From Bradyrhizobium sp. 141 (GTDB lineage: Bacteria > Pseudomonadota > Alphaproteobacteria > Rhizobiales > Xanthobacteraceae), in assembly GCF_023074055.1 (NCBI RefSeq), contig NZ_JADPKR010000108.1, positions 310,001-374,000 on the forward strand: a DNA stretch of 64,000 nucleotides. The letters are read 5' to 3'. This document shows positions 42,355 through 52,387 of this stretch, piece after piece. The notes below the pieces were generated by a model. That model was not told the DNA's origin. It saw only the letters and a list, made by a program, of their open reading frames with translations, and ran no database searches. Position 1 is the stretch's first letter; every line of letters begins with the position of its first letter. A program made the position numbers and the translations under genes.

Positions 42355-43896
42355 ATGACGGCTTTCTCGCTGGAGACATTCGGGTTCCCGGAGGTCCATG
42401 CCGACGGCCGCCCGATCAAGTTGAACCTACGCAAGGGTCTTGCGCTGCTCGTCTATCTCGCGGAGGCCAAGGCTGCGGTCGCGCGCGACGTCATCGCCAC
42501 GCTGCTTTGGGCCGAGACCGATCGCGAGACGGGCCTTGCGCGGTTGCGGCGCCTGCTTCATCGCGTGGAGCTCACGCTCGGGCAGTCGGTTTTCGAGACT
42601 GACCGCACGACCGTGCGATGGTCTCCGGCGGTCGAGCTGAAGATCGATACGCATCTGTTCGAGAGCGCCTGCGATCGCGGCGCCTTTGAAGAGGCCTGCT
42701 TGATCTATCGGGGCGACTTCCTTGCGGGCTTCGCTCTGGGCGACTGTCCCGAATTCGACGAGTGGGCCTTCTTTCGCCGGGAGGCGCTGCGGGGACGGCT
42801 CATGCATGCGCTGGAGCGTCTGGTGCAGGACAACAACGCCGCCGGCGATCATTTCGCCGCGACAGCTCATGCGGGACGCCTGGTTGAGCTCGATTCATTG
42901 AGCGAAGTGTATGGCCGGCATCTGATCCGCAGCCTTCTGCTCGCCGGCGACCGAAGCGCGGCAGAGCGTCATCACGCAGCCCTGACGCAGCGGCTGCGCG
43001 ACGAGCTTGGGGTTGCGCCGGAGGCCGAGACCGAGGCGCTGATGAGTCCCGCGGCGGCGCCGCATGCCGCCCCGCTGACGCGCTACGTGAAAGGCGCCGG
43101 GGTTCATCTGGCCTATCAGACCCACGGAAGCGGTCCGCTCGATATTCTGGTGATGCCCGGCTTCGTGTCGCATGTGGAGCGTGCCTGGGAGAACCCTGCG
43201 AGCCGGACGTTCCTGGCGTCATTGATGCGGCTCGGACGCCTCATCGTGTTCGATCGTCGCGGGATCGGGCTGTCCGACCGGGTCGGATCAGCCCCTGGCA
43301 TCGATGTCACCGCGGAGGATATCGGCACCGTCCTGCGGGCGGTGAACTCGCGCCGAATCGTGCTGTTCGGCGCGTCCGAATGCGGGCCGGCCTGCATCAA
43401 GTTCGCGGTCGACGAGCCGCGGCGGGTGGCCGGGCTGATCCTGTTCGGCGCGCTGGCCAAGGGCTGCTGGTCGCAGGACTATCCGCACGCGCTGCGCGCC
43501 AGCCAGTATGATGCCTGGAGCAAGCATCTGATCGCGCAATGGGGCGGGCCAGTTGGAATCGAAACCTTCGCACCGAGCCTTGCTGGCGATCCCCAGGCGC
43601 GCGCCTGGTGGGCGGGGCTGTTGCGTGCAGCGTCCAGTCCCGGCGGTATCTCGGCCGTGCTCGAAGCGTTTCGCGACGCCGACGTGCGGCATCTCTTGCC
43701 TGAAATCACTATGCCGACGCTGGTGCTGCACCGGCGCGGCGACCAGGCCGTGCGCATCGCGGCCGGTCGCGATATGGCGAGCCGGATCAAGGGCTCAGAG
43801 TTCGTCGAGCTCGACGGTAACGATCACTGGTTCTTTGCCGGGGATCAGCGGCCGGTGCTGGTGGCGATCGGGGAATTCATGAAACGGATCTTGTAG
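42355..43896 (+). CDS. BTAD-type regulator fused to an alpha/beta hydrolase
   Basis: 513 residues. Residues 1-90 look like a winged-helix start of SARP/BTAD proteins (LETFGFPEVHADGRPIKLNL, RKGLALLVYLAEAKAAVARD, WAETDRETGLARLRRLLHRV), and 95-225 is the helical BTAD (YRGDFLAGFALGDCPEFDEW, LRDELGVAPEAETEAL). Residues 245-513 are an alpha/beta hydrolase: MPGFVSHVERAWENP, FDRRGIGLSDRV, nucleophile elbow FGASECGPA (S341), Asp around 463 (LHRRGDQAV) and H491 (GNDHWFF). The elbow is GxSxC rather than GxSxG. It may bind a ligand with the hydrolase fold, or be an enzyme. Divergent from the MddA-like operon. Confidence 0.85.
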   Translation: MTAFSLETFGFPEVHADGRPIKLNLRKGLALLVYLAEAKAAVARDVIATLLWAETDRETGLARLRRLLHRVELTLGQSVFETDRTTVRWSPAVELKIDTHLFESACDRGAFEEACLIYRGDFLAGFALGDCPEFDEWAFFRREALRGRLMHALERLVQDNNAAGDHFAATAHAGRLVELDSLSEVYGRHLIRSLLLAGDRSAAERHHAALTQRLRDELGVAPEAETEALMSPAAAPHAAPLTRYVKGAGVHLAYQTHGSGPLDILVMPGFVSHVERAWENPASRTFLASLMRLGRLIVFDRRGIGLSDRVGSAPGIDVTAEDIGTVLRAVNSRRIVLFGASECGPACIKFAVDEPRRVAGLILFGALAKGCWSQDYPHALRASQYDAWSKHLIAQWGGPVGIETFAPSLAGDPQARAWWAGLLRAASSPGGISAVLEAFRDADVRHLLPEITMPTLVLHRRGDQAVRIAAGRDMASRIKGSEFVELDGNDHWFFAGDQRPVLVAIGEFMKRIL

Positions 43897-44001: not shown

Positions 44002-44640
44002 TCACACCGCCTCTAGCTCACGCTTCTTCTTCGCTTTCGTTTGTCCGAGCAGGGGGCCCGCGGTCAGTGCCGCGGTGTCCGCCACGCCCGGATCGCGCGA
44101 GATCATTGCGGCGACGATGGCACCGTCGATCAACAACCCGAGCTGATGCGCGAGCACCGCGGGCTCGCTCGAGCCGAGCTCGCCGGCGAGCTTCTCGATG
44201 TGGCCGAGCACGATCTTCTTGTGCTTCAGCGCGATATTGCGGAACTGCTTGGCGTCCTTGTCGTGCTCGCCGACCGCGTTGATGAAGGGGCAGCCGTAGA
44301 AGCGCTCCTCGGCAAACCAGCTCTTCAGGGCCGGGAAGATGCGCGTGAGCTTCGCCTGCGCGTCGCCGCCGCCTTCCTCCATGGCGGCGATAAACCATTC
44401 ACGCCACTGCTTGCCTTCGCTTTCCAGCACCGCGTTGACGAGATTGGTCTTCGAGCCGAACAATTTGTAGAGCGTGGTCTTCGCGGTGCCGGCCTCCTCG
44501 ATGATCGCATCGATGCCGGTGGCGTTGATTCCGTTCTTGCAGAACAGATGCGAGGCGGCGCTGAGCAGGCGCCCGCGCGCGGATTCGTCGTCGCCAGTGG
44601 CGGCGTGCGGCGAGGTCTTCTTCGATGACGTCTTTGCCAT
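44002..44640 (-). CDS. TetR-family regulator
   Basis: 212 residues. A Lys/Ser-rich leader, then the HTH RLLSAASHLFCKNGINATGI, DAIIEEAGTAKTTLYKLFGS, and the rest as a C-terminal TetR_C domain (WFAEERFYGCPFINAVGEHD). It is divergent from the osmC gene of the cyanate island across a 245-base gap that also holds the sigma-54 promoter, so it may control that island; no palindrome stands out. Confidence 0.88.
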   Translation of the reverse strand: MAKTSSKKTSPHAATGDDESARGRLLSAASHLFCKNGINATGIDAIIEEAGTAKTTLYKLFGSKTNLVNAVLESEGKQWREWFIAAMEEGGGDAQAKLTRIFPALKSWFAEERFYGCPFINAVGEHDKDAKQFRNIALKHKKIVLGHIEKLAGELGSSEPAVLAHQLGLLIDGAIVAAMISRDPGVADTAALTAGPLLGQTKAKKKRELEAV

Positions 44641-44815
44641 GGCGACGAACTTAATCGCAGCCGCGCGGTATCATCAAGCCGCATCTGCTTCGCGCCGAAA
44701 AGATTCGCATTCGCTCATGCATCTGCATCCCCTTTGAGCAGAGCGCGGCTGATCAATCCGCAGGCAGCGACCTTAAGCGGCTCCAATGCCTCGCATTTCG
44801 TTTTCGGCCGTCTTT

Positions 44816-44829
44816 GGCACGCCCTATGC
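44816..44829 (+). promoter_or_regulatory. Sigma-54 (-24/-12) promoter before osmC
   Basis: TTGGCACG-CCCT-ATGCAA against the consensus YTGGCACG-N4-TTGCW: the GG at 44816-44817 and GC at 44828-44829 are ten bases apart and only one core position (A for T) differs. The predicted start is about 44840, 45 bases before osmC. Sigma-54 promoters are typical of nitrogen-controlled genes. Confidence 0.6.
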
Positions 44830-44885
44830 AAGGAAACAGACCGTTCGGTATCCTGCCGTTTTTCACGGCTGCCAGGGAGAAGATG

Positions 44886-45428
44886 ATGACTGCCGTCGTT
44901 CAAAAGACCGTGCTGACGGGGTGCCTTGCGCCCATCGACAAGAATGGCCTCGAGCAACTGATTGCGAGCGGCAAGGCCAATCCGAAGGTCGTCAAGACCT
45001 TGAAATGCAAGACGGTCGCCGAAGGAAAATTCCGCCACGCCAACTACATCCGCAATCTGCCGCCCTACATCGTCGACGAGCCGCCGGGACTCTTGGGCGA
45101 CGACACCGCGCCCAATCCGTCGGAAGCCTCGCTCGCCGCGCTCGGCTCGTGTCTTGCCGTCGGCCTGCATGCCAATGCGGTGCATCGCGGCTGGATCGTC
45201 AACAAGCTCGAGCTCGAGCTCGAAGGCGACCTCAACATCACCGCGGTCTGGGGTACTGGCGATACCTCGGACAAGCCGGTCGGCTTCACCGACGTCCGCG
45301 TCAAGGTCGATATGGAATGCGAGGGCATCGCGCAGGACGAGATCAATGCGCTGGTGGCTCATGTGAAGACATGGTCGCCGGTCGCCAACACCTTCACCCG
45401 CCCGGTTAATCTCGAGGTCGGCATCTAG
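44886..45428 (+). CDS. OsmC-family protein
   Basis: 180 residues from ATG at 44886 (ATG at 44883 is adjacent; GGGAG favours this one). The OsmC/Ohr fold has the motif NPSEASLAALGSCLAVGLHA with the first reactive Cys in GSC, and the second Cys in KVDMECEGIAQDEINAL. OsmC proteins reduce organic hydroperoxides or bind small thiols. It is the first gene of the presumed cyanate-island operon, behind the sigma-54 promoter. Confidence 0.85.
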   Translation: MTAVVQKTVLTGCLAPIDKNGLEQLIASGKANPKVVKTLKCKTVAEGKFRHANYIRNLPPYIVDEPPGLLGDDTAPNPSEASLAALGSCLAVGLHANAVHRGWIVNKLELELEGDLNITAVWGTGDTSDKPVGFTDVRVKVDMECEGIAQDEINALVAHVKTWSPVANTFTRPVNLEVGI

Positions 45429-45463
45429 CCGATAGCAATCAGGACAAGGTGCGGGAGACGATC

Positions 45464-46597
45464 ATGAGTTCACTGGCTTTATCGCGGGTCGAAGTTTTGG
45501 ATCAGCCCGCACCGTCCATTGCAGGCGAGGTGGCGCGGATCGCGCGGGAGCAGCTCGCGCCGCTCGCGGTCGGCATCGACGACGGCTCGGTCTATCCGGC
45601 CGAGGTGCTGCGCAAGTTCGGCGAGATCGGCGCCTGGGGCAGTCACGTGCCGCACGAAGGTCCCGCCGATCTGCGCTGCGCGATCCAGGCGATGGCGGCG
45701 ATCGGTGAAGTCTGCGGCGCCACGGCCTTCATGGCTTGGTGCCAGAACACGCTGGTCTGGTACGCGGCAAACTCGACGAACATCAAGCTGGCAAAACGCT
45801 TCGGCGATGCCTTCTCGACCGGCCGCGTGCTCGGCGGCACCGGGCTCTCCAATCCGATGAAGAGCTTTTTCGGCATCGAGAAATTGAAGCTGAAGGGACG
45901 CAAGGTCGAGGGCGGCTACATCGTGCGCGGCGCGCTGCCCTGGGTCTCCAATCTCGGTCCCGACCATTATTTCGGGACCATCTTCGAGCGCGAGGACGAG
46001 CCGGGCATCGCAAGCGGCGAGCCGGGCACCGTCATGTTTCTGGCGGATTGCGCCGATCCCGCCATCACGCTGACGCCGTGCAAGCCGTTCATGGCGATGG
46101 ACGGCACCGGCACCTATGGCGTGCAGTTCCGCGACGCGTTTGTGCCGGACGAGCTGATCCTCGCCGATCCCGCCGGGCCCTTCGTCAAGAAGATCCGCGC
46201 CGGCTTCATTCTCCTGCAGGCCGGCATGGCGCTGGGCGTGATCAAAGACTGCATCAACATCATGGACGAGGTGGATAGCCCGCTCGGCCATATCAACCGC
46301 TATCTGCCGCAGCAGCCGGTGCACTTTCGCGATCTCGCCGCCGAGCTCGAGGCCGAGACCATGGCGCTGGCACGCGATCCCTACAACGAGGAGGAAACCT
46401 ACTGGCGCAAGGTAATCGCGCTTAGGCTTCGCGCCGGCGAGGCCAGCGTCGCGGCAGCGCATGCGGCGATGCTGCATTGTGGCGCCCGTGGCTACCTGAA
46501 GAGCCACCGCGCGCAGCGGCGCCTGCGCGAGGCCTATTTCGTCGCGATCGTCACGCCGGCCACCAAGCAGCTGCGCAAGATGCTCGCTGATTTCTGA
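45464..46597 (+). CDS. Acyl-CoA dehydrogenase-like flavoprotein
   Basis: 377 residues from ATG at 45464 with GGGAG upstream. Acyl-CoA dehydrogenase fold: helical N-terminus, MAWCQNTLVWYAANSTNIKL, TGLSNPMKSFFGIEKLKLKG, beta domain with GGYIVRGALPWVSNLGPDHY, and FAFVPDELILADPAG-like region, then a four-helix C-terminus (LRAGEASVAAAHAAMLHCGA). The usual catalytic Glu region is not clear, so it may be one of the flavin monooxygenase-like members (DszC/SfnC type) rather than a beta-oxidation enzyme. It lies between osmC and the rhodanese gene. Confidence 0.75.
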   Translation: MSSLALSRVEVLDQPAPSIAGEVARIAREQLAPLAVGIDDGSVYPAEVLRKFGEIGAWGSHVPHEGPADLRCAIQAMAAIGEVCGATAFMAWCQNTLVWYAANSTNIKLAKRFGDAFSTGRVLGGTGLSNPMKSFFGIEKLKLKGRKVEGGYIVRGALPWVSNLGPDHYFGTIFEREDEPGIASGEPGTVMFLADCADPAITLTPCKPFMAMDGTGTYGVQFRDAFVPDELILADPAGPFVKKIRAGFILLQAGMALGVIKDCINIMDEVDSPLGHINRYLPQQPVHFRDLAAELEAETMALARDPYNEEETYWRKVIALRLRAGEASVAAAHAAMLHCGARGYLKSHRAQRRLREAYFVAIVTPATKQLRKMLADF

Positions 46598-46649
46598 GCT
46601 TCACGAGTCCACCCCAGAAGACCACTTAACCTCAACGGAGAGGCTGCCA

Positions 46650-47528
46650 ATGACGGACGTTCTGATCTCTGCCAGCGAACTTGCCGATCTCTTGAAGACG
46701 GCGCCGTGTGTCGTGATCGACACCCGCAATCCCGACGCCTATGGCGCCGGGCACCTGCCGGGCGCCGTGAACGTGCATGAAATCTTCACGTTCCTCGCAA
46801 CCTCGACGCCGGAGGGCATCAGCGAGCTGAAGACCAAATTCGCCGACGCCTTCGGCGCCGCCGGCCTCTCCGGCAAGGAGACGGCCGTGATCTACGAGCA
46901 GTCGATGAATTCCGGCTTCGGCCAGTCCTGCCGCGGCTACTACCTGCTCACCATGCTCGGCTATCCCAAGGTGAAGGTGCTGCATGGCGGCTTCGACGCG
47001 TGGGCCGCCGCGGGTCTTCCGGTGACGAAGGACGTCCCGGCGCCGGCCAAGGCCTCGTTCGCAATCGTGCCGGAAGCGGGCGAGATTCTGATCGACGCCA
47101 AGACCATGCTCGCCGCGGTCGGCAAGCCCGGCGTCGCCATCCTCGACGTGCGCGACGTCGACGAGTGGATCGGCGACAGCTCGTCCCCGTACGGCAAAGA
47201 CTTTTGCCCGCGCAAGGGCCGCATCCCCGGCGCGGTCTGGCTGGAATGGTACCGCATGATGAAGCCGACCGCCGAAGGCCCGCGCTTCAAGTCCAAGGAC
47301 GAGATCCTGGCGGAATGCGCCACCGTCGGCATCACGCCCGCTACGCCGGTTTACCTCTACTGCTTCAAGGGCGCGCGGGCCTCGAACACCTTCCTGGCGC
47401 TCAAGAATGCCGGCGTGAAGGACGTGCGGATGTATTTCGGCTCCTGGAACGAATGGTCGCGCGATCCCTCGCTGCCGATCGAGCAGGGGCTGCCTGTGGC
47501 TGCCCAGGTAACAGGCAAGGCGGCATAG
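46650..47528 (+). CDS. Sulfurtransferase (two-domain rhodanese)
   Basis: 292 residues. Two rhodanese domains. N-terminal domain VVIDTRNPDAYGAGHLPGAV; C-terminal domain AILDVRDVDEWIGDSSSPYG, then the catalytic loop YCFKGARASN with C238. Transfers sulfane sulfur to thiophilic acceptors such as cyanide, making thiocyanate, or thiols. In a cyanase locus it may link cyanide/thiocyanate chemistry to cyanate use (inference). A GC-rich hairpin lies downstream (47546-47577). Confidence 0.9.
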   Translation: MTDVLISASELADLLKTAPCVVIDTRNPDAYGAGHLPGAVNVHEIFTFLATSTPEGISELKTKFADAFGAAGLSGKETAVIYEQSMNSGFGQSCRGYYLLTMLGYPKVKVLHGGFDAWAAAGLPVTKDVPAPAKASFAIVPEAGEILIDAKTMLAAVGKPGVAILDVRDVDEWIGDSSSPYGKDFCPRKGRIPGAVWLEWYRMMKPTAEGPRFKSKDEILAECATVGITPATPVYLYCFKGARASNTFLALKNAGVKDVRMYFGSWNEWSRDPSLPIEQGLPVAAQVTGKAA

Positions 47529-47646
47529 AACCTGCATGTTTCCAATGGCCCGGCTGCACAAGGCGCGGCCGGGCCATGACGGAATTCTGACCTGACGCGG
47601 CGGACAACGGCGTCCCTCGCGCAGTGTGACAAAGGGGCGCAGCAGC

Positions 47647-49029
47647 ATGTCCACGTTCGACGATCCGTTTGATGCCGTCCGCAGTCTCCAGGCGGGCTGC
47701 GTGTGCGGCCAGCACCGTTCGGCGGCAGAGCACGAGCAGGCGCCGCTGGCTTTGCGCTGCGAGCCCGTCGAGAGCGAGGAGAAGCGCTACGAGGGTGTTG
47801 TCGCCTCCGCCGTGATGCGCGCGATGTTTCCGCAGGACCTGGCGCGGCGTGCGTTCCTGAAATCGGTCGGGGCCTCCACGGCGCTGGCCGCGCTGTCGCA
47901 GTTCTTCCCGCTCAAGACCGCGACGGAGCTGTTCGCGCAAACGGGTGCGCCCGAGAAGAAGGACCTCAAGGTCGGCTTCATTCCGATCACCTGCGCCACG
48001 CCCATCATCATGGCGGCGCCGATGGGCTTTTACGCCAAGCACGGTCTCAACGTCGAGGTGGTCAAGACCGCCGGCTGGGCCGTGATCCGCGACAAGACCA
48101 TCAACAAGGAATACGACGCGGCGCACATGCTGGCGCCGATGCCGATCGCGATCTCGCTCGGGCTTGGTGCCAACGCCATTCCGTTTGCGGTGCCTGCGAT
48201 CGAGAACATCAACGGGCAGGGCATCGTGCTGGCGGCCAAGCACAAGGAGAAGCGCGATCCCAAGGATTGGAAGGGCATGAAGTTCGCCATCCCCTTCGAC
48301 TATTCCATGCACAATTACCTGCTGCGCTATTATCTCGCCGAGCATGGTCTCGACCCCGATACCGACGTGCAGCTGCGCTCGGTGCCGCCACCGGAGATGG
48401 TCGCGAATTTGCGTGCCGACAACATCGACGGCTTCCTCGCCCCTGATAACATCTGCCAGCGCGCGATCTATGACGGCGTCGGCTTCATGCATCTGCTCTC
48501 CAAGGAGATCTGGGATGGTCATCCCTGCTGCAGCTTTGCCGCCAGCCGCGAGTTCATCACGACCGCGCCGAACAGCTTTGCGGCGCTGACGCGGGCGATC
48601 GTCGATGCCACCGCCTATGCATCGAAGGCGGAGAACCGCAAGCAGATCGCGGAAGCCATCGCGCCCGCCAATTACATCAACGCGCCGGTCACGGTGTTGG
48701 AGCAGGTGCTGACCGGCACCTATGCGGACGGTCTCGGCGGCGTGAAGACCGATGCCAAGCGCGTCGATTTCGATCCGTTCCCGTGGCAGTCCTTCGCGGT
48801 GTGGATGCTGACCCAGATGAAGCGTTGGGGGCAGATCAAGGGCGATGTCGACTACAAGGCCGTCGCCGAGCAGGTGTATCTTGCCACCGACACCAAGAAG
48901 CTGATGACCGAGATGGGCCTGTCGCCGCCTGCGAGTGCCTACAAGTCGTTCGCGGTGATGGGCAAGACTTTCGATCCGGCCAAGCCGGAGGACTATGTCG
49001 CGAGCTTCAAGATCAGGAAGTCGTCGTGA
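47647..49029 (+). CDS. NrtA/CmpA-type ABC substrate-binding protein with Tat signal
   Basis: 460 residues. Residues 95-450 are a CmpA/NrtA-family binding protein (DLKVGFIPITCATPIIMAAP, GWAVIRDKTINKEYDAAHML). The Tat motif RRAFLKSVGAS starts at R67-R68, unusually far in. Before it is a 65-residue leader with C18, C20, H23, H29 and C38 (AGCVCGQHRSAAEH), a Cys/His array that may bind metal. Family members bind nitrate, bicarbonate, sulfonates or cyanate; with cyanase next door, cyanate is the best guess. It is followed by permease and ATPase. Confidence 0.85.
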   Translation: MSTFDDPFDAVRSLQAGCVCGQHRSAAEHEQAPLALRCEPVESEEKRYEGVVASAVMRAMFPQDLARRAFLKSVGASTALAALSQFFPLKTATELFAQTGAPEKKDLKVGFIPITCATPIIMAAPMGFYAKHGLNVEVVKTAGWAVIRDKTINKEYDAAHMLAPMPIAISLGLGANAIPFAVPAIENINGQGIVLAAKHKEKRDPKDWKGMKFAIPFDYSMHNYLLRYYLAEHGLDPDTDVQLRSVPPPEMVANLRADNIDGFLAPDNICQRAIYDGVGFMHLLSKEIWDGHPCCSFAASREFITTAPNSFAALTRAIVDATAYASKAENRKQIAEAIAPANYINAPVTVLEQVLTGTYADGLGGVKTDAKRVDFDPFPWQSFAVWMLTQMKRWGQIKGDVDYKAVAEQVYLATDTKKLMTEMGLSPPASAYKSFAVMGKTFDPAKPEDYVASFKIRKSS

Positions 49030-49047
49030 GGCGACCTCTCTCAGCAT

Positions 49048-49177
49048 CGTCGTCCCGGCGAACGCCGGGACCCATACCGCGGAATCCATCGATTGTGATC
49101 AGTAGAAGTACCGGACAACGAGTCTTCGCCAAACGTCTCCCTGGGGTTATGGGTCCCGGCGTTCGCCGGGACGACGG
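49048..49177. repeat. Dispersed inverted repeat, CGTCGTCCCGGCGAACGCC type
   Basis: Arms of about 26 bases: CGTCGTCCCGGCGAACGCC at the left is the complement of GGCGTTCGCCGGGACGACG at the right, and GGGACCCAT pairs with ATGGGTCCC. Sits between the binding-protein and permease genes within one operon. Confidence 0.8.
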
Positions 49178-49195
49178 GTGGAGAGGTCTTGCGCG

Positions 49196-50035
49196 ATGAC
49201 ATCGTCTCTCCGTCTCCGCGCCGGCCTTGTCTCCATTGTGCTGCTCGCCGCGTTCCTCGGTATCTGGCATCTCGCCACGCGCTCGACGGCGCCCGTGACT
49301 ACGATGAGCCCGGAATATGCCAGGCTGATGGGGTTGACGGCAACGCAAGGCAAGTCCGCCATGCCGGGGCCGCTCGATGTCGGTGCCAAGCTGTGGGAGC
49401 ATTTGAGGCGGCCGTTCTACGACAACGGTCCGAACGACAAGGGCCTCGGCATCCAGCTCGCTTATTCCATCGCGCGCGTCGGCACAGGCTATTTGCTGGC
49501 CGTGCTGGTCGCGATTCCGCTGGGGTTCCTGATCGGCATGTCGCCGCTGCTGAGCAAGGCGCTCGATCCCTTCATCCAGGTGCTGAAGCCGATCTCGCCG
49601 CTGGCCTGGATGCCGCTGGCGCTCTACACTATCAAGGATTCCTCGATCTCGGCGATCTTCGTCATCTTCATCTGCTCGATCTGGCCGATGCTGCTCAACA
49701 CCGTGTTCGGCGTCGCCAGCGTGCGCAAGGAATGGATCAACGTCGCGCGCACGCTGGAGGTCGGCACGCTCAGGCGCGCCTTCACCGTGATCCTCCCCGC
49801 TGCGGCGCCGACGATCCTGACCGGCATGCGCATCTCGATCGGCATCGCCTGGCTCGTGATCGTCGCCGCGGAAATGCTCGTCGGCGGCACCGGGATTGGC
49901 TATTTCGTCTGGAACGAGTGGAATAATTTGTCGATCACCAACGTCATCATCGCGATCCTCCTGATCGGGATCGTCGGCATGCTGCTCGACCAGATCCTGG
50001 CGCGCTTCACGCGCATGGTCACCTTTCCGGAGTAG
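49196..50035 (+). CDS. ABC transporter permease (NrtB/CmpB/CynB-like)
   Basis: 279 residues from ATG at 49196 with GAGAGG upstream. Six or so transmembrane helices; the EAA-like loop and [20 protein letters not shown] signature are typical of nitrate/cyanate/taurine permeases (also [40 protein letters not shown]). It forms the channel with 47647-49029 and 50041-50964, most likely for cyanate. Confidence 0.92.
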
Positions 50036-50040
50036 GGGCG

Positions 50041-50964
50041 ATGACCGACAAATTCATCTCCATCGAAGGCATCGGCAAGCGCTATTCCGGCGCGGGCGGC
50101 GCCGCGACCACCGTGTTCGAGAATCTCTGGCTGTCGATGGCGCGCGGCGAGTTTGCCTGCGTGATCGGCCATTCCGGCTGCGGCAAGACCACGGTGCTCA
50201 ACATCCTCGCCGGCCTCGACGCGCCGAGCGAGGGCGCGGTCATCGTCGACGGACAGGCGATCTCCGGCACCAGCCTCGACCGTGCCGTGATCTTCCAGAG
50301 CCATGCGCTGCTACCCTGGCGCACCGTGCTCGGCAATGTCGCCTATGCCGTGAGCTCGAAATGGCGAAGCTGGGATCGCGCCAAGGTGAGGGCGCATGCG
50401 CAAGAATTCATCGATCTCGTTGGTCTCACCGGCTCCGAGCACAAGCGGCCGTCAGAACTGTCGGGCGGCATGAAGCAGCGCGTCGGCATCGCGCGGGCGC
50501 TGTCGATCACGCCGAAGATGATGCTGATGGACGAGCCGTTCTCGGCGCTGGACGCGCTGACGCGCGGCACGCTGCAGGACGAGGTCCGGCGCATTTGCCT
50601 GGAGACCGGGCAGACCGCGTTCATGATCACCCATGACGTCGACGAGGCGATCTATCTCGCCGACAAGATCTTTCTGATGACCAACGGGCCCGGCGCGGTG
50701 CTCGCTGAGGTGGTCGAGAACCCGCTGCCGCGGGATCGCGGCCGGATCGATCTGCACCGCCATCCGCTCTACTACGCGCTGCGTAACCACATCGTCGATT
50801 TCCTGGTGACGCGCAGCAAGACGTTTACCACCGAGACACCCGGTCACGATCCGCGTAATGTGCCGGTGGTGCAGATCGGCAAGCCGGGACTGACGGTCGC
50901 GGCTGCCAGCGATGAGCCACGGCAAACGTGGATGCCCGGGAGCAGCCCCGGATTAAGTGCCTAA
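50041..50964 (+). CDS. ABC transporter ATPase (NrtD/CmpD/CynD-like)
   Basis: 307 residues. Walker A GHSGCGKT near 43-50, Q loop [16 protein letters not shown] signature [16 protein letters not shown], Walker [15 protein letters not shown] loop [14 protein letters not shown]. NrtD-type with a short C-terminal extension that ends in a tail without known motif. Starts five bases after the permease stop, and cynS begins 16 bases after its own stop, so all are one operon. Confidence 0.95.
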
Positions 50965-50980
50965 CCAAGGAGACCTCCAA

Positions 50981-51469
50981 ATGAAACGCGAAGACCTCAC
51001 CGAAAAGCTGCTCGACATCAAGCGCGAGAAGGGATGGAGCTGGAAGCACATCTGCGACAAGATCGGCGGCTATTCCGAGGTGCTCATCGTCGGCGCGATC
51101 CTCGGCCAGATGAAGCTGACGAAGCCGCAGGCCGCCAATGCCGGCGAGCTGTTCGGCCTGTCGAAGGCGGAAGTTGCGATGCTCAACGAGGTGCCGATGC
51201 GCGGCACCGGCACGCCGATGCCGCCGACAGATCCTCTGATCTACCGCTTTTACGAGATGGTGATGGTGAACGGTCCGGCCTGGAAGGCGCTGATCGAGGA
51301 GGAGTTCGGCGACGGCATCATGTCGGCGATCGACTTCGACATGGCAATGGAGCGCGTCGCCAACCCGAAGGGCGACCGCGTCAAGATCACGATGAGCGGC
51401 AAATTCCTGCCGTACAAATATTACGGCGCCAGCGGCAACGTGCCGGAATACGGCTTCAGGGAGGACTGA
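50981..51469 (+). CDS. cynS: Cyanate hydratase (cyanase)
   Basis: 162 residues from ATG at 50981, with AAGGAGACCTCCAA before it. Catalyses bicarbonate-dependent decomposition of cyanate to ammonia and carbon dioxide; works as a decamer in the cytoplasm. The active-site trio of E. coli cyanase (R96, E99, S122) is present as R89, E92 (YRFYE) and S115 (GIMSAIDFD). The N-terminal helix-turn-helix-like region (MKREDLTEKLLDIKREKGWS) is normal. It closes the transporter operon and its end overlaps the convergent gene by 14 bases. Confidence 0.97.
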   Translation: MKREDLTEKLLDIKREKGWSWKHICDKIGGYSEVLIVGAILGQMKLTKPQAANAGELFGLSKAEVAMLNEVPMRGTGTPMPPTDPLIYRFYEMVMVNGPAWKALIEEEFGDGIMSAIDFDMAMERVANPKGDRVKITMSGKFLPYKYYGASGNVPEYGFRED

Positions 51470-52283
51470 CCGACGCGAAGGCCTCGCGCAGCTCGCCGAC
51501 CGGAGCCATCTCGCGAACGTAGGTGAAGGATCCCTTGTCCTTCATCTCGCGCGCGCAGTTCAGGAACGCGGCGAGCGCGTAGCGCGACATGGCGCCGCCG
51601 ACGCTGATGCGCTTGACGCCGGCGGTGGACAATTGCCCGACTGTCAGCGTCGGGTCGGCGAAGCCCATCACGTGGTTGAACGGCTTGCCGAGCGAGGAGA
51701 CGACGGTCCGGATCGTGGCGAGGTCGTACAGGCCGGGCGCATACAGGACGTCGGCGCCCGCAGCCTCGAAGGCCTGCAGTCGGCGAATCGTGTCGTCGAT
51801 GTCCTTGCGGCCGTGCAGGAAGTTCTCGGCCCGCGCAGTCAGCGTGAACGGAATTGGCAGCGCGCGCGCCACTTCGACGGCGGCCTGGACGCGCTCGACG
51901 GCGTGGGAAAAGTCATAGATGGGACGATCGCGGTCGCCGCTGTAATCCTCGATCGAGCCGCCGACGGCGCCAGCCTCGGCGGCACGCCGTATGGCTTCGG
52001 CCGCACGTTGCGGCTCATCGGCGCCGCAATTTTCGAGATCGACGCTGACCGGAAGGTCGGTGGCATCGACGATCGCGCGCGCATTGGCGAGGATGACATC
52101 GAGACTGACGCCGCCGCTGCCGAGCATGTTGGCGACCCCGAGGCTCGTGGTTGCCAGGGCCTCGAAGCCCATCGCCGCGAGCAGCTTGGCCGTGCCGGCA
52201 TCCCATGGATTGGGAATGATGAAGGCGCCAGGCCGCTCGTGCAGCGCGCGAAACGCTGTCGCCTTGTCCAGTTGGCTCGTCAT
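51456..52283 (-). CDS. Isocitrate lyase/PEP mutase family protein
   Basis: 275 residues from ATG at 52283. PEP-mutase-like fold: PGAFIIPNPWDAGTAKLLAA, MGFEALATTSLGVANMLGSG, LPVSVDLENCG (Asp/Glu Mg2+ region), VGGSIEDYSGDRDRPIYDF, FTLTARAENFLHGRKDIDDT, DVLYAPGLYDLATI, GVKRISVGGAMSRYALAAFL. These enzymes cleave or rearrange C-C or C-P bonds in 2-oxoacids; members of this subgroup are mostly uncharacterised oxaloacetate/2-methylisocitrate-like lyases. Divergent from the LysR gene, which may regulate it. Confidence 0.85.
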   Translation of the reverse strand: MTSQLDKATAFRALHERPGAFIIPNPWDAGTAKLLAAMGFEALATTSLGVANMLGSGGVSLDVILANARAIVDATDLPVSVDLENCGADEPQRAAEAIRRAAEAGAVGGSIEDYSGDRDRPIYDFSHAVERVQAAVEVARALPIPFTLTARAENFLHGRKDIDDTIRRLQAFEAAGADVLYAPGLYDLATIRTVVSSLGKPFNHVMGFADPTLTVGQLSTAGVKRISVGGAMSRYALAAFLNCAREMKDKGSFTYVREMAPVGELREAFASVSPP

Positions 52284-52387
52284 GGCTCGTCTCCGCGTTG
52301 TCCGTCGATGCAGCCTTAGGAGCATTTTCGCCATCCGCCAAATTTGTTATTCTTGCAGCGAACATCAGTTTTTTGCATGAGGTCGCG

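Follow-up and report, generated by a model that had tools for sequence, protein, structure and literature searches.

Why does a set of cyanate-assimilation genes stand in one row behind genes for an OsmC-family protein, an acyl-CoA-dehydrogenase-like (ACAD) flavoprotein and a rhodanese? The question is raised by a locus of Bradyrhizobium sp. 141, which lies within the 64,000-nucleotide stretch that we analyzed (positions 310,001 to 374,000 of contig NZ_JADPKR010000108.1; hereafter, the window). The cluster spans 44002-51469 and consists of a divergent tetR gene followed on the plus strand by osmC, the ACAD-like gene and a tandem rhodanese gene (together, the trio), the genes of an NrtA/B/C-like transporter, and cynS (Table 1). 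The plus-strand genes are separated by gaps of 5 to 118 nt, with the exception of 166 nt between the binding-protein and permease genes. An earlier note on this DNA had listed eight plus-strand features, all of which we found in the place and order described; its extent left out the tetR gene (44002-44640) and a palindrome, which also belong to the unit. We propose, at close to an even chance of being right, that the cluster combines cyanate assimilation with a module that forms cyanate by removing sulfur from a small C-N-S compound (most likely thiocyanate), and that it is expressed from a single sigma-54 promoter bearing a TetR operator. Cyanate use is the known half of this proposal; the substrate, the chemistry, the direction of sulfur flow and NtrC as the activator are what we infer.

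The use of cyanate had been predicted in the earlier note, and family models uphold it, with matches to CynS and an NrtABC-like transporter. The transporter and cyanase genes follow the A-B-D-S order of the cynFABDS type, and the cyanase itself was recognized as well; cynS was present in 36 of the 36 Bradyrhizobium genomes searched, including the window's own. In the portion of the Pseudomonas pseudoalcaligenes CECT5344 report that we draw on, CynF is essential for expression of cynABDS (PMC6627978). As described there, that system resembles the window cluster in its NrtA-like binding protein, permease, ATPase and cyanase, in their order and in its sigma-54 promoter, and many relatives of the window also have a divergent sigma-54 activator gene before the binding-protein gene. 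The window differs in lacking both the activator and its promoter, and its row begins with osmC, ACAD and rhodanese genes, which stand behind another sigma-54 promoter that carries a TetR-type palindrome. The cyanate genes are of the known cynABDS kind, and the osmC-ACAD module has a fair chance of representing a new pathway. Within the open-licence PMC literature, we found no description of OsmC, cyanase, rhodanese and acyl-CoA dehydrogenase together, nor of OsmC, thiocyanate and cyanate together. The excerpts of that literature in which OsmC and cyanase both appear do not describe the osmC-ACAD cluster, and the excerpt of PMC11804256, which was found for RpoN, cyanate and Bradyrhizobium, holds only a mention of cyanate lyase.

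Sigma-54 promotion, another claim of the earlier note, is borne out by conservation of the -24/-12 element upstream of osmC. In the window, the element reads TGGCACGCCCTATGCA over 44815-44830 and is the sole match to TGGCACG-N4-WTGCA when at most one mismatch is allowed. However, at this setting 0.86 matches are expected per window, at least one match was found in 57 of 100 shuffles, and a looser -24/-12 search returned 17 matches versus 29.6 in shuffles, which is fewer than chance. Taken alone, the window match is poor promoter evidence, and we accept the promoter call because the element is conserved across osmC upstream regions. For this count, 155 loci were reduced to 141 distinct regions by removal of 14 duplicates, with loci excluded if their osmC match started past residue 40 or their upstream stretch was shorter than 150 nt. 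TGGCAY-N6-TGC was present in 129 of the 141 regions, compared with a background of 0.004 per 200 nt in the remainder of these loci. The predicted promoter has GG and GC at the proper spacing, it is conserved, and an activator is available in the genome.

The gene beside osmC distinguishes the regions that carry the element. It was present in 128 of 128 distinct regions with a tetR or sigma-54 activator gene beside osmC and absent from 12 of the 13 others. In an alignment of 32 distinct upstream regions from the genus, the -24/-12 element occurred in all and was followed at constant spacing by AACAGACCGTTCGGTATCC or a near variant, and beyond the genus this block is a clean palindrome (e.g., GACAGACCGGTCTGTC). 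Element and palindrome occurred together in every one of the 120 distinct regions in which tetR adjoins osmC (94 from Bradyrhizobium and 26 from elsewhere), and in one Bradyrhizobium region for which the osmC neighbor was not identified. Where the neighbor of osmC was a GAF-domain sigma-54 activator gene, the regions had the element in eight of eight cases and the palindrome in none, and regions with osmC behind a permease gene or other neighbor had neither (12/12). The palindrome thus occurs with tetR, which suggests most simply that it is the TetR operator, likely placed on the predicted transcription start site.

Control by NtrC, as the earlier note proposed, received mixed support. The genome encodes NtrC (745 bits; cut-off, 559), and a TGC-N11-GCA dyad, which we take to be the NtrC signature, precedes the -24 element by 88-96 nt in 94 of the 95 distinct regions from Bradyrhizobium. 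However, only 2 of the 34 distinct regions from elsewhere have the dyad at this place, and scanning the genome for the composite site gave three places versus one in the reversed control, which lends no support. NtrC is therefore only suggested as the activator of the osmC promoter. Between dyad and promoter, the block CTGATCAAT at 44749-44757 is highly conserved in the genus and may be a DNA-bending site.

Is the continuous row the general arrangement? We compared 35 other Bradyrhizobium genomes with cynS and 80 named loci, which are the best 80 of 538 relatives in an ACAD scan of genome contigs and come nearly all from Bradyrhizobium. The window order, with the rhodanese gene directly followed by the binding-protein gene and no activator gene, was found in 11 of the 35 genomes and 24 of the 80 loci (17 complete to cynS and seven ending at a contig edge), so the order is not unique to this strain. 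Another 10 genomes have a divergent activator gene between the rhodanese and binding-protein genes, five have the activator and transporter with no trio in the fetched stretch, and one contig was too short. The remaining eight have cynS alone in the fetched stretch, and none of these eight genomes has the ACAD gene. Among the named loci, the activator gene stands behind the rhodanese gene in 44 (with the binding-protein gene visible next in 43), the binding-protein gene precedes the activator gene in three, the trio and cynS occur with no transporter match of at least 60% in five, and the trio alone occurs in four. TGGCAY-N6-TGC lies within 120 nt upstream of the binding-protein gene in all 43 named loci that have the activator and in 0 of 24 that lack it. 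This activator, which has PAS and sigma-54 AAA+ domains and a Fis-type end that scored under the cut-off, occupies the place of CynF. In many relatives, the trio and the cyn genes thus form separate sigma-54 units, and a cynF-like activator gene lies between the two, which contradicts the idea of one general operon; the single continuous row characterizes the window and certain other lineages but is not how most of the genus loci compared are arranged.

The window itself appears to have lost what the second unit depends on. No ortholog of the cynF-like activator was found in its genome (best match, 44% over part of the protein), and none was detected at E 1e-150 in the 11 other fused genomes or the eight cynS-only genomes. 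A separate transcript for the trio, which had been named as a possible objection, is consistent with the trio's own promoter in relatives, but the window has no second -24/-12 element of quality before the transporter genes. The best candidate there, which scored 18.5 out of 23, begins with CGG in place of TGG and overlaps the stop codon of the rhodanese gene, and it was rejected as a hidden promoter. Also rejected as drivers of the window row were the cynF-like activator, for which there is no genome ortholog and no ACGA...TCGT repeats before osmC in the alignment, and a GAF-type activator like that of Caballeronia, for which the best match in the genome was 38% and NifA-like by our reading of the sequence alone. 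Because both the cynF-like activator and the second promoter are missing, the fused row would depend on the osmC promoter and another activator. Judged from these comparisons, it arose when two sigma-54 units merged following loss of the dedicated activator.

Several loci (L and g numbers are our labels) show further variants. In L038 and similar loci, three ACGA-N4/5-TCGT repeats lie approximately 80-150 nt upstream of the binding-protein gene and are probable sites of the cynF-like activator. In L244, from a genome of the same order, both units are adjacent, and each has its own sigma-54 activator and -24/-12 element. L036 has kept tetR and lacks the trio (920-2095), with a short remnant that resembles the osmC leader and start. 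Among the eight loci where the fetched stretch has cynS but neither the trio nor a transporter or activator gene, six (L033, L035, L047, L056, L060 and L061) carry TGGCACGTTTCGTGC upstream of cynS; L062 carries a variant of it, and L058 has none of quality.

We also asked what the transporter might import. Among proteins of solved structure, those related to the binding protein of the window bind nitrate and bicarbonate, and its alignment retains Trp, Gln and His, with Lys replaced by Cys, at what we take to be the nitrate contacts of NrtA. The HPCC stretch at this place does not tell the ligand because it also occurs in trio-free loci (L036). Five loci encode two binding proteins (L112, L137, L221, L225 and L242). 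In the three from Bradyrhizobium (L112, L221 and L225), the copy behind the rhodanese gene groups with the window protein, and the copy behind the activator gene falls in a separate set. The two groups have tree support of 94-100, and the conserved positions that separate chosen sets of 13 and 11 proteins include A/G265 and N/P268. The trio thus has its own binding protein beside a second one behind the activator, which suggests that the ligand of the trio is probably not cyanate itself. We infer that two related ligands may share one permease.

The chemistry would center on the ACAD-like protein. Its predicted model (mean pLDDT, 80) has the acyl-CoA dehydrogenase superfamily fold, and a fold search gave Z scores of 33.5-36.8 over 328-356 residues among the 50 rows listed. 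The protein shares the fold with this superfamily and differs from it in its low identity (12-20%) and in lacking glutamate at the catalytic places. In two alignments, with isovaleryl-CoA and short-chain enzymes, no Glu aligned at the positions that we take to be the catalytic glutamate sites, and at one of them AIVTPA is invariant in 12 sequences. The fold searches identified the superfamily only and gave no substrate hint. In OsmC, one Cys is fully conserved, and the place that we take to be that of the second catalytic Cys of OsmC/Ohr peroxidases reads SP in all 22 rows. The rhodanese active-site loop, CFKGARAS, is conserved in 17 sequences; such a charged loop is typical of thiosulfate-using enzymes.

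Outside Bradyrhizobium, the module was followed in 46 loci that were picked for holding ACAD. They carry 29 genus labels, which may coincide between genomes and named records, many are from one family, and some contigs are short. The osmC gene adjoins the ACAD gene in 41 of the 46, and the fetched flanks hold a gene for an NrtA/SsuA-like binding protein in 32, a rhodanese in 26, an FAD reductase match in 22 (two of them to the rubredoxin part only), cynS in 14 (nine genus labels), and a persulfide dioxygenase-like gene in five. On a Marinobacter shengliensis plasmid, the transporter and sigma-54 activator genes accompany those for OsmC, ACAD, rubredoxin/reductase and CynS, and an Acetobacter ascendens plasmid encodes OsmC, ACAD, rubredoxin/reductase, NrtA-NrtB-ATPase, CynS, a porin and an activator. 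Caballeronia has one row consisting of activator gene, -24/-12 element, osmC, ACAD, rubredoxin/FAD reductase, transporter, cynS and persulfide dioxygenase. Loci of roseobacters combine the module with a sulfurtransferase, a Methylocystis locus was also found, and Corynebacterium occultum has OsmC with a 24% ACAD-like neighbor. The joint occurrence of osmC-ACAD with cynS in unlike arrangements in Marinobacter, Acetobacter and Caballeronia, together with sulfur enzymes, supports the wider pathway ending in cyanate that the earlier note had thought conceivable. Furthermore, among 248 genomes of the family, cynS was present in 57 of 62 with ACAD versus 111 of 186 without it (Fisher p 7e-7, a value that ignores descent).

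Moraxella and Neisseria have a CMD-family gene in the place of osmC, and we read the CxxC of the Neisseria protein as AhpD-like, with one thiol protein apparently swapped for another. In Neisseria gonorrhoeae (L235, 6419-8368), the CMD-family gene, an ACAD homologue and a rubredoxin-sized match stand in a row. A Rhizobium sp. AB2/73 plasmid (L238, 1878-6534) encodes a 40% identical OsmC near a three-gene set resembling nitrile hydratase/thiocyanate hydrolase and CbtAB genes.

These linkages bear on whether the cluster serves cyanate alone. A CynABDS-type operon for cyanate only, in which OsmC, ACAD and rhodanese would protect against or repair carbamoylated thiols or would be passengers of operon fusion, would fit the likeness of the cyn half to a known system, as far as the report consulted describes it (PMC6627978), and the separation of the halves in many Bradyrhizobium loci. 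We regard this explanation as improbable, given that Alpha-, Beta- and Gammaproteobacteria all have loci linking osmC-ACAD to cynS and a transporter, and that several loci have their own binding protein behind the trio. The sulfur enzymes bear on a further alternative, in which rhodanese converts cyanide to thiocyanate and the flavoprotein converts thiocyanate to cyanate, with the sulfur returned. The tandem rhodanese with its CFKGAR loop would suit such cyanide assimilation, but the persulfide dioxygenase-like gene in five loci, and the lack of rhodanese beside ACAD in L131-L134 and the Caballeronia forms, fit net sulfur release better than a cyanide cycle that reuses its sulfur, and we consider cyanide assimilation very improbable. 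The Caballeronia dioxygenase resembles solved ETHE1-type enzymes (E 3e-56 to ETHE1), and the L131 dioxygenase-like protein scored 400 bits to the Blh family (cut-off, 625) and matches solved structures of such metallo-beta-lactamase-fold proteins.

For the desulfurizing module, we propose the following scheme. The sigma-54 promoter, with the TetR operator on its start site, would drive the row from osmC through ACAD, rhodanese and the cynABD-like genes to cynS, and the transporter, being of the nitrate/cyanate kind, would import a small linear anion. The ACAD-like flavoprotein would strip its sulfur, with electrons supplied via the rubredoxin/FAD reductase that is adjacent in many relatives, and the one-Cys OsmC (in a thiol step) and rhodanese would accept and pass on sulfane sulfur. 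Carbon and nitrogen would exit as cyanate, from which cyanase would yield ammonia and CO2. Sulfane sulfur, as implied by rhodanese and persulfide dioxygenase, and cyanate, as implied by cyanase, would be joint products, and thiocyanate is the simplest molecule to give both; it is therefore the most likely substrate, which would serve as a nitrogen source.

Two known thiocyanate systems offer comparisons, as far as the published excerpts go. The copper thiocyanate dehydrogenase of the cyanate pathway, reported from Thioalkalivibrio and Afipia (PMC5744179, PMC5328954, PMC8061750), has the same net conversion as proposed here, from thiocyanate to cyanate and zero-valent sulfur, and the T. thiocyanoxidans operon has a sigma-54 activator; in contrast, that enzyme is a periplasmic copper protein, whereas the window has a flavoprotein set and, presumably, nitrogen-type control. 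Thiocyanate hydrolase clusters (PMC5328954) resemble the locus in having a NitT/TauT-family transporter and sulfur-transfer proteins nearby, with cyanase adjoining in Thiobacillus thioparus, and differ in that the hydrolase yields carbonyl sulfide. Family model searches found no nitrile-hydratase-like gene among the seven proteins of the window cluster.

Several observations weigh against the proposed pathway. The evidence for thiocyanate is indirect, and the window cluster lacks a reductase gene. The ACAD model is closest to true acyl-CoA dehydrogenases and gives no hint of a monooxygenase. In Acetobacter and L248, no -24/-12 match immediately precedes osmC; in L248, the element is instead upstream of the rhodanese gene, which stands first. 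The deep split of binding-protein types has modest support (nodes of 53-80), and the window type also occurs behind the activator in single-copy loci, so the types are not cleanly tied to the units. In the excerpt consulted, a thiocyanate-degrading Afipia strain is assigned a copper desulfurase (PMC8061750). Moreover, the modules of g41 and g50 stand without a binding protein or cynS nearby, 32 of the 46 outside-genus loci have no cynS inside the fetched flanks, and the SsuA-like binding protein of a second transporter type could point to an organosulfur substrate. The last two points, together with a match of ACAD to 3-sulfinopropanoyl-CoA desulfinase that is weak (E 9e-8) and far under the cut-off, favor the same architecture acting on another substrate, such as an isothiocyanate, thioamide, thiourea-like or sulfonate-like compound, with cyanate as one product or merely a frequent neighbor. 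However, the nitrate- and bicarbonate-binding relatives of the window protein and the recurrence of cynS under nine genus labels in unlike arrangements argue against such a substrate, which we consider unlikely, though a serious contender.

Table 1. Features of the cluster in the window.
Feature	Position	Strand	Basis
TGC-N11-GCA dyad, candidate NtrC-type enhancer, 91 nt upstream of -24 element	44724..44740	+	conserved in genus
-24/-12 (sigma-54) promoter TGGCACGCCCTATGC, predicted	44815..44829	+	motif match and conservation
Palindrome ACAGACCGTTCGGT, likely TetR operator, overlaps predicted transcription start	44836..44849	+	conservation beside tetR
TetR-family regulator, divergent from osmC	44002..44640	-	Pfam TetR_N, E 8e-13
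OsmC-family protein	44883..45428	+	Pfam, E 1e-18; single fully conserved Cys (GSC/GGC)
ACAD-like flavoprotein without usual catalytic glutamates	45464..46597	+	Acyl-CoA_dh_N, 5e-8
Two-domain (tandem) rhodanese, active-site loop CFKGAR	46650..47528	+	two rhodanese stretches, 7e-36
NrtA/CmpA-family binding protein, type behind trio in two-binding-protein loci	47647..49029	+	NMT1_2, 1e-81
REP-like element, perfect 29-nt inverted arms, in binding-protein/permease gap	49048..49176		sequence
NrtB-type permease	49196..50035	+	NCBIfam ntrB, 230 bits (cut-off 209)
NrtC/D-like ATPase	50041..50964	+	288.2 bits, slightly under cut-off 291.8
Cyanase CynS	50981..51469	+	above NCBIfam and Pfam cut-offs

The REP-like element could set the binding protein and permease to different levels. 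Searches of the region for sigma-70 promoters and terminators gave no excess over shuffles. A convergent PEP-mutase-family gene (51456-52334, minus strand) shares 14 nt (51456-51469) with the 3' end of cynS, and upstream of tetR, a gene at 42355-43896 encodes a BTAD-domain regulator fused to an alpha/beta hydrolase.

Taken together, these results raise the possibility, which we advance tentatively and somewhat short of an even chance, of a third, flavoprotein-based route from thiocyanate to cyanate for nitrogen, spread as a module, partly on plasmids, over Alpha-, Beta- and Gammaproteobacteria, and with an actinobacterium carrying a related osmC-ACAD pair. Equally tentatively, its parts could be an activator or TetR regulator, its own binding protein, an OsmC/AhpD-like thiol protein, an ACAD-like desulfurase, a rubredoxin/FAD reductase, a rhodanese or persulfide dioxygenase, and cyanase. 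According to the portion of PMC5328954 consulted, heterotrophs of several genera grow on thiocyanate as a nitrogen source, and the first-step routes named there are thiocyanate hydrolase and thiocyanate dehydrogenase. If true, the module would provide a precise, testable gene set for another thiocyanate route.

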